DNA of 64,000 bases from contig NZ_KE387023.1 in assembly GCF_000430045.1 (NCBI RefSeq), forward strand, positions 2,348,702 to 2,412,701, given 5' to 3'. Shown piece by piece: positions 4,011 to 5,588 of this stretch (its first letter is position 1; every line of letters starts with the position of its first letter). The position numbers and the translations under genes are program-made. The notes beneath the pieces were generated by a model. It saw nothing but the letters and a program-made list of their open reading frames with translations, was not told the DNA's origin and did no database searches. The stretch comes from Calidithermus chliarophilus DSM 9957 (GTDB lineage Bacteria > Deinococcota > Deinococci > Deinococcales > Thermaceae).

Positions 4011-4016
4011 TATACT
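4011..4016 (+). promoter_or_regulatory. -10 box of the cysS leader transcript
   Basis: TATACT at 4011-4016 lies 6 nt before the ATG at 4023, the same spacing as the other leaderless starts in this window. This places the transcript start at the leader ORF, about 120 nt upstream of cysS. Confidence 0.55.
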
Positions 4017-4022
4017 CGACCC

Positions 4023-4046
4023 ATGAGCTTCGCCGTGCGATGTTGA
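4023..4046 (+). CDS. Putative cysS leader peptide, 7 codons ending in Cys
   Basis: ATG AGC TTC GCC GTG CGA TGT TGA encodes MSFAVRC. The Cys codon is the last before the stop, it follows an ideally spaced -10 box, and a terminator-like hairpin starts 12 nt after the stop. This is the arrangement expected of a ribosome-mediated attenuator sensing cysteine or Cys-tRNA supply. It is far too short for statistical support; the case rests on position and content. Confidence 0.4.
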   Translation: MSFAVRC

Positions 4047-4057
4047 GCTGAACCGAT

Positions 4058-4098
4058 CGCCGGGTGTCTGGTGCCGTCGTGCCCAGGCCCGGCGTTTT
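4058..4098 (+). terminator. Candidate attenuator terminator upstream of cysS
   Basis: An outer stem CGCCGGG (4058-4064) / CCCGGCG (4088-4094) with an inner CTGG/CCAG pair, followed directly by TTTT and then GAATTT. The loop side GTCGT (4076-4080) can alternatively pair with ACGAC (4112-4116), giving a possible competing structure. It sits between the leader ORF and the cysS ribosome site. Confidence 0.5.
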
Positions 4099-4142
4099 GA
4101 ATTTCAGCCCGACGACCCGTGCCCCTTGGAAAGGAAGCTGCT

Positions 4143-5588
4143 ATGCCCTTACAGATTTACAACACCCTCACCCGCCAGAAAGAACCCTTCGTCCCCGGGA
4201 CTCCCGGCTACGCGGGCATCTACTTCTGCGGGCCCACCGTCTACGGCGACCCCCACCTGGGCCACGCGCGCGGCCCCATCACCTACGACGTGCTGCGGCG
4301 CTGGCTCGAGTACACCGGCCACAAGGTGCGCTTCGTCTCCAACATCACCGACGTGGGCCACCTGGTCGATGACGCCGACGAAGGCGAGGACAAGGTGCAG
4401 AAGCGGGCCAAGCTCGAGCGCCTGGAGCCCATGGAGGTCGCCGAGAAGTACATGTGGGCCTACTTCGACGACATGAAGGACCTCAACGTGCGCCGCCCCG
4501 ACATCGCCCCCCGGGCCGCCGGGCACGTCCCCGAGCAGATCGACCTCACCCAGAGGCTGCTCGAGCGCGGCTACGCCTACGTGCGGGGCGGCTCGGTCTA
4601 CTTCCGGGTGCGCGCGTGGCCCAGCTTCGGCAAGCTGTCCAACCGCCAGGTCGAGGACCAGGAGGCCGGGGCGCGGGTGGAGGTGCGCGAGGAGAAGGAG
4701 GACCCCCGCGACTTCGCCCTTTGGAAGAGCGCCGACCCCGAGCACATCATGCGCTGGAAGAGCCCCTGGGGCGAGGGTTATCCCGGCTGGCACATCGAGT
4801 GCAGCGCCATGAGCCTGAAGTACCTGGGCGAGGGCTTCGACATCCACACCGGCGGCATCGACCTGCAGTTCCCCCACCACGAGGCCGAGATCGCCCAGGC
4901 CGAGGCCGCGGGCTACAAGTTCGCCCGCTACTGGATGCACCACAACCACGTGCTGCTGGGCGGCGAGAAGATGGCCAAAAGCACCGGCAACTTCGTGGTG
5001 CTGCGCGACCTGCTCAGCCGCCACGAGCCCATCACCGTGCGCTTCTACCTGCTGGGCAGCCACTACCGCAGCGTGCTCGACTTCACCTGGGAGGGCCTCG
5101 AGTCGGCCAAGCAGGGCTACATGCGCCTTTTGAACGCCTACCGCGAGATCCGCCGCCAGGTCGCGGAGGCCCCGGCCGGGCGGCACGCCGGGCTCGAGCG
5201 GGCCATCGACGCGCTCGAGGCCCGCTTCGCCGCCGCCCTCGACGACGACCTCAACACCGCCCAGGCCCTCGCCGCCCTCTTCGAGTTCGTCACCGAGTTC
5301 AACAAGGCCCTCCCCGACAAGCCCGGCCGCGACACCCTCGCCCGCGCCGAGGCCGTCTTCGGCCAGCTCGGCGAGGGCGTGCTGGGCCTGTTCCCCAAGC
5401 GCGTGCTCGAGGCCAGCCTGGGCGGCGACCTGCTCGACGGCCTCATCAAACTGCTGCTCGAGATCCGCGAGGAAGCCCGCCGCGAGCGCAACTTCGCCCT
5501 CTCCGACCAGATCCGCAACCGCCTCACGGAACTCGGCCTCACTGTGGAGGACACCCGGGAAGGGCCGAAGTGGAAGGTAGGGGTATAG
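4143..5588 (+). CDS. cysS: Cysteine--tRNA ligase
   Basis: A 481-aa class I aminoacyl-tRNA synthetase that charges tRNA-Cys. The HIGH-type motif is in [15 protein letters not shown] near the N-terminus, the zinc-site segment [13 protein letters not shown] and the [16 protein letters not shown] motif are intact, and the KMSKS equivalent is KMAKSTGNF. The C-terminal helical anticodon-binding part is full length. ATG at 4143 is chosen over an in-frame GTG at 4119 because AAAGGAAG sits at ribosome-site distance from it. Expression may be set by the attenuator-like leader upstream. Confidence 0.97.

Follow-up and report, generated by a model that had tools for sequence, protein, structure and literature searches.

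Why should an open reading frame (ORF) of seven codons, the last of them for Cys, stand between a promoter-like box and a terminator-like hairpin just upstream of cysS, the gene for cysteinyl-tRNA synthetase? The locus lies in a 64,000-nt stretch of the Calidithermus chliarophilus DSM 9957 genome (the window), from whose first letter all positions are counted. An initial annotation had described a TATACT box 6 nt before an ORF of seven codons ending in Cys, followed by a stem-loop with TTTT and then the cysS ribosome site, and this description is confirmed at the positions collected in Table 1. It had also suggested that the ORF encodes a leader peptide for attenuation, read from a leaderless start and carrying one Cys codon at its end. 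This reading is supported by the kept spacing of promoter and ATG, the kept Cys codon, and the kept terminator. We consider it highly probable that the element is a cysteine-responsive attenuator of cysS. The fuller statement, that transcription is attenuated through the ribosome and that the stalled ribosome blocks the hairpin directly, we favor with more reserve, as rather probable.

Table 1. Features of the cysS leader region and their positions in the window
Feature	Position	Strand	Remarks
−10 box TATACT	4011–4016	+	6 nt 5′ of the leader ATG; TA...T box conserved in relatives, no −35 match
Leader ORF, MSFAVRC-stop	4023–4046	+	ATG AGC TTC GCC GTG CGA TGT TGA; predicted transcription start at 4023
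CGA-TGT (Arg-Cys) dicodon, predicted stall site	4038–4043	+	Cys codon 4041–4043; CGA in P site, UGU in A site
Spacer, stop codon to GCCGGG	4047–4058	+	12 nt; length fixed, letters variable
Intrinsic terminator	4058–4098	+	hairpin 4058–4094, lower stem CGCCGGG/CCCGGCG; TTTT 4095–4098
AAGGA ribosome-binding site of cysS	4131–4135	+	from sequence
cysS, cysteinyl-tRNA synthetase, 481 aa, proposed regulated gene	4143–5588	+	Pfam tRNA-synt_1e, E 7.7e-108

In the window, the end of the terminator and the cysS ATG are 44 nt apart. A generic consensus scan of the leader region found no −35/−10 pair and recovered just a short form of the terminator stem, so that the leader promoter is assigned from the conserved −10 box and the distance that separates it from the ATG. 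An Rfam scan of the leader stretch at E values up to 10 matched no family, and the T-box riboswitch model of Rfam matched neither a T-box sequence nor a specifier structure in it.

The initial annotation had proposed aligning the upstream regions of cysS in Thermaceae and had named lack of conservation of the ORF or the hairpin as the outcome that would count against it. We sampled cysS loci from 50 genomes of this family, 22 from groups g1 to g3 (g3 is Meiothermus, with G006 being Meiothermus hypogaeus) and 28 from g4 and g5 (g4 is presumably Thermus). The −10 box, the ORF, and the hairpin all recur upstream of cysS in g1 to g3. An RNA model of the aligned leaders finds one match per genome in 19 of the 22 g1 to g3 genomes, each 5′ of cysS and none elsewhere in the genomes, and no match in the 28 g4 and g5 genomes. 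An ORF with in-frame CGA-TGT behind a −10-like box is present within 260 nt of cysS at 18 of the 22 g1 to g3 loci (19 with the more distant L009), compared with 0.07% of the dinucleotide shuffles that served as their control. The alignment of the 19 leaders has 88 columns, in which CGATGTT and the stem GCCGGG/CCCGGC are invariant. Every one of these ORFs terminates with CGA-TGT-stop, three are one codon shorter, and the TA...T box lies 6 to 7 nt 5′ of the ATG in all 19 relatives; between hairpin and cysS there are 48 to 160 nt. Throughout the alignment, then, both the Cys codon and the terminator stem are kept, contrary to the adverse outcome that the initial annotation had named, and on sequence grounds the leader element is more than chance.

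Three g1 to g3 loci are exceptions. L016 and L022 have no such ORF, and L017, from a Meiothermus relative, has a GTG-start leader (VASPRQC-stop) in which CAA replaces CGA and a remodelled hairpin lies much closer to the Cys codon. No leader ORF is present in the eight g4 and g5 cysS loci that we read. In the Thermus-like g4 loci L025 to L031, which have no leader, a TATAAT box stands immediately 5′ of the cysS ATG, and cysS itself may be leaderless there.

Beyond Thermaceae, 29 cysS loci from other families of the order were usable, 23 from f4 and f5 and six from f2 and f3 (L091, whose match starts at residue 69, was excluded); no locus sampled in this phylum-wide comparison was identified as genus Deinococcus. 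A Cys-containing, leaderless-looking ORF behind a −10-like box is found at 24 of the 29. In-frame CGA-TGT occurs at 17 of the 23 f4/f5 loci versus 0.04% of shuffles, in leaders that include MNRPARRC, MMRTGRRCRR, and MFGFAFAPRRCSR (each closed by a stop codon), and Cys-Cys at four of the six f2/f3 loci versus 0.17% of shuffles, rates that overstate the evidence because sequences within one clade are not independent. The f2/f3 leaders with tandem Cys codons read MTALRNAVCCRSS, MNLTTPSSLCCRP, MNLHRSSLCCCCT, and MVFTPRVILHGCCDRL, again each up to a stop codon; they do not contain CGA-TGT, and their tandem Cys codons point to cysteine sensing. The CGA-TGT hexamer is kept between families whose flanks look unrelated, and the Cys leader remains with cysS in f5, f2, and f3, where the upstream sequence is unlike that of Thermaceae. 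We recognized no intrinsic terminator in the f4/f5 leaders, so the mechanism cannot be identical there. Among cysS loci outside the phylum, 4 of 75 have a short ORF with Cys-Cys or an RC/CGATG motif behind a −10-like box. A search of 111 genomes for the pattern GCTA...T-ATG-CGATGTT returned the cysS leaders and scattered matches, and the same design was not seen before the Trp and Tyr synthetase genes of the window's genome.

Several of these loci carry features of their own. Two metagenome-assembled genomes have candidate leaders before cysS, MKPSALCCCPRVRVA-stop in one from Deinococcales (L093:1150-1530) and MAQVLPTRCWFCSDHP-stop in one from Truepera (L094:1150-1530), and these predicted leaders extend the pattern to named relatives. 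Upstream of cysS at four f2/f3 loci (L069, L071, L075, and L078), Cys codons in tandem or in pairs are accompanied by CTCGAG repeats and strong terminators; judging from their letters, the repeats and terminators could form a classical antiterminator/terminator switch. Four genomes of genus g14 (L240 to L243) share a hairpin, CGGGG...CCCCG, directly 3′ of the leader stop, which is followed by AAAA, not T, and is therefore no terminator on this strand.

How the Thermaceae leader might act is constrained by its spacing and its folds. A distance of 18 nt separates the Cys codon from the GCCGGG stem in 17 leaders, the other two of the 19 having 19 nt, and the spacer from stop codon to stem is correspondingly 12 or 13 nt (17 and 2 leaders); its letters vary, the first G excepted. 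All 19 have a conserved hairpin and T tract between the ORF and cysS, with 90.4% of the cells of the stem able to pair versus 31 to 50% in slid versions. Three pairs of the upper stem show changes on both sides; the lower stem is without variation and so gives no covariation evidence. When the ORF and the ribosome footprint were masked, the terminator remained the favored structure in 17 of the 19 leaders (L017 stands apart, and the masked fold of L023 covered a partial hairpin, the full one being present in the alignment), and an RNA rearrangement is therefore not needed to explain antitermination. Neither the alignment nor the masked folds of the 19 leaders contained a conserved antiterminator in the spacer, and no conserved stem covers the Cys codon in the window or in the Thermaceae leaders. 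These observations weigh on classical attenuation, in which a stall would let a spacer segment pair with the 5′ arm of the terminator (UGAUCCC-GCC-GGGGUCA in L004, for example) or, as the initial annotation had it, would let GTCGT pair with ACGAC. L004 and L010 do favor a competing fold once the footprint is masked, and the strong f2/f3 terminators have complementary CTCGAG repeats upstream, a possible switch set; against this stand the masked folds of the other 17 leaders and the unconserved spacer, and we regard an RNA antiterminator as unlikely. The letters of GTCGT and ACGAC are present in the window (4076–4080 and 4112–4116), but ACGAC is absent from the sister species L003 of the same genus, and we reject that pairing.

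Control at a later step would suit the f4/f5 loci, which retain the CGA-TGT leader with no evident intrinsic terminator: the leader could affect how accessible the ribosome site of cysS is, or the untranslated RNA from leader to cysS could be a target for Rho, the hairpin being secondary. The leaderless polycysteine ORFs of mycobacteria are described as acting on translation (PMC9031893, PMC13236596), and at L072, L081, and L086 the pairing of leader and ribosome site exceeds that of most shuffles. Over the 19 f4/f5-type loci, however, this pairing has a mean rank of 0.43 against shuffles, which is chance, so that sequestration of the ribosome site is unsupported overall; the terminator of Thermaceae, moreover, is strictly conserved and held at a fixed distance. 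Translational or Rho-dependent control is, in our judgment, quite improbable. A programmed frameshift, or an overlapping start at the AUG inside CGATGT, could instead take the ribosome over the terminator or into cysS under cysteine starvation. A P-site CGA promotes +1 slips in yeast (PMC6301793), and in 15 of the 19 leaders the +1 frame stays open across the hairpin, while at 7 of 18 f4/f5 loci it is in frame with cysS, yet each of the two shifted frames is closed in some of the 19 genomes (4 and 6 of them), one genus has one genome in five that would join cysS in frame, and the poly-Cys leaders of f2/f3 do without CGA-TGT. We rejected reading in a shifted frame, whether across the terminator or on into cysS, as not conserved among genomes, and we give a frameshift very little credence. 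The hairpin could also be the terminator of the upstream neighbor, a gene for a polyketide-cyclase-like protein whose stop codon lies about 70 nt before it on the same strand, with the mini-ORF incidental. Against this, the stretch separating that stop codon from the hairpin contains a conserved promoter and ORF, and the Cys ORF stays before cysS in f5, f2, and f3 despite different preceding sequence; we find this explanation scarcely credible.

The fixed distance between Cys codon and stem suggests instead that the ribosome itself is the antiterminator. The course of events that we infer, from the leaderless start and the stall to the steric block, the read-through, and the direction of the response, would be as follows. 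Transcription would start at the A of the leader ATG, and a ribosome would load on the bare 5′ end once it has emerged. With charged tRNA-Cys plentiful, the ribosome would read the seven codons and exit at the stop, and the terminator would fold and halt RNA polymerase. With charged tRNA-Cys scarce, it would wait at a UGU in its A site, CGA occupying the P site, 14 to 15 nt before the stem. Once RNA polymerase has reached the T tract that follows the hairpin, too little free RNA would be left between it and this ribosome for the stem to close, and transcription would continue into cysS. We note that 14 to 15 nt from A site to stem lies near the upper limit of the range thought to matter, and for this reason the steric step, in which the ribosome stalled at UGU itself blocks the hairpin, could in our view go either way. 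On reaching the stop codon a ribosome stands nearer still to the stem than one at UGU, so only dwell time would separate the fed from the starved state.

Precedents exist for the way of working. In the tlrB (yxjB) leader of Bacillus subtilis, a ribosome stalled before the last codon of a 9-aa leader blocks a nearby terminator by keeping its base from closing, and there is no conserved antiterminator (PMC6851288). The same arrangement, in which a stall codon precedes the stem by a short and constant interval and no antiterminator is present, recurs at 18 to 19 nt in all 19 Thermaceae leaders, the stall there being predicted. tlrB differs in that its trigger is tylosin acting with an RYR motif, in its Shine-Dalgarno site, and in its need for a NusG pause (PMC6851288), whereas the proposed trigger in the window is a shortage of charged tRNA-Cys; the likeness concerns mechanism, and no kinship is claimed. 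In Escherichia coli, the terminator tR2 is repressed when close behind a stop codon, with termination of 0.12 at 17 nt in one series and maximal termination beyond about 27 nt; counting against the steric step, one series gave 0.8 at a stop-to-stem distance of 18 nt (PMC4824070). The same study holds 10 to 15 nt to be sufficient for full terminator folding and describes terminators within 100 bp of a gene's start as effective, the ribosome being not yet near (PMC4824070), so that in the leader the race between ribosome and RNA polymerase may call for a pause. In vitro, a coupled ribosome reduces termination (PMC10135430). Since relatives across the Thermus-Deinococcus phylum keep the tiny ORF before cysS, our reading is that it probably registers a lack of cysteine through a stalled ribosome and thereby switches the enzyme on.

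In classical attenuators of the trp and his type, a leader ORF carries codons of the regulated amino acid before an intrinsic terminator. The window shares these features: a short ORF with the codon of the regulated gene's amino acid is present in each of the 19 aligned leaders and, more widely, in other families of the phylum, and an intrinsic terminator follows in the 19 from Thermaceae (none was found in f4/f5). The Thermaceae leader differs in its single regulatory codon, in its predicted leaderless start, and in the lack, throughout the 19 leaders, of a conserved antiterminator or 1:2 stem that would be mutually exclusive with the terminator. Another near counterpart is uORFC-8-2 of Rhodobacterales, a short Cys ORF with a terminator-like stem and U run directly 5′ of cysS for which ribosome-mediated attenuation has been proposed (PMC8632094). 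Codons 14 and 15 of the alphaproteobacterial ORF, which lie inside the first of two stems, are a tandem pair for Cys, mostly UGC; this is not found in the window or in Thermaceae, where a putatively leaderless ORF of six to seven codons has one UGU after CGA, no stem over the Cys, and the fixed 18-nt distance. In mycobacteria, leaderless polycysteine short ORFs (Canestrari et al. 2020, as cited in PMC9031893 and PMC13236596) are described as giving cysteine-responsive attenuation of downstream genes. A leaderless short Cys ORF and a cysteine response, proposed in our case, are shared; the mycobacterial ORFs have contiguous Cys codons, precede cysteine biosynthesis operons, and act on translation, whereas the window has one Cys codon, cysS, and an intrinsic terminator. 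Contiguous Cys codons are absent from the Thermaceae leaders and occur just in the f2/f3 relatives, whose tandem-Cys leaders are closer to the mycobacterial ORFs than the window's leader is.

Cys leader peptides before cysS and leaderless polycysteine leaders are thus known, and what is new here is the predicted design that joins a leaderless start, a single Cys, CGA-UGU, and fixed spacing. A literature search that left out most subscription journals and the D. deserti transcriptome returned no earlier report of the element in the Thermus-Deinococcus phylum. If our reading is correct, few switches that respond to an amino acid would be simpler: this one would make do with an AUG at the very 5′ end, a single Cys among six or seven codons, and a terminator at a set distance, and with no RNA rearrangement. 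The CGA-Cys families, the poly-Cys families, and Thermus, where the leader is absent, would then form a natural series for the evolution of such switches.

Within the coding sequences of cysS in these genomes, TGT accounts for 8% of the Cys codons and CGA for 3.9% of the Arg codons. All 39 leaders of Arg-Cys type use TGT as the Cys codon of the pair, and CGA precedes it in 36 (19 from g1 to g3 and 17 from f4/f5), the other three having CAA, AGA, and CGG. The tRNA-Arg anticodons of the window's genome are ACG, CCG, CCT, and TCT, plus a GCG copy in a tRNA array, a set from which CGA should be read by the inosine tRNA; the tRNA-Cys anticodon is GCA only. We infer that CGA sharpens the cysteine response. 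Tentatively, CGA-UGU may be a built-in slow pair, in which CGA, read solely by the inosine tRNA through I-A wobble, would when in the P site weaken decoding of the next codon, a Cys codon read by G-U wobble. This would make one Cys as charging-sensitive as the tandem Cys of the sister families and would work with a purely steric terminator block, although we think it doubtful that all of this holds. If it does, the CGA-UGU leader would sense an amino acid with no more than six to seven codons, a minimal design kept across the phylum. The tRNA array (L202, G000:C3:780600-784600) packs 17 tRNA genes of the same strand into 4 kb, among them a second tRNA-Cys and the unusual tRNA-Arg GCG, and looks like a mobile-element or phage tRNA cluster.
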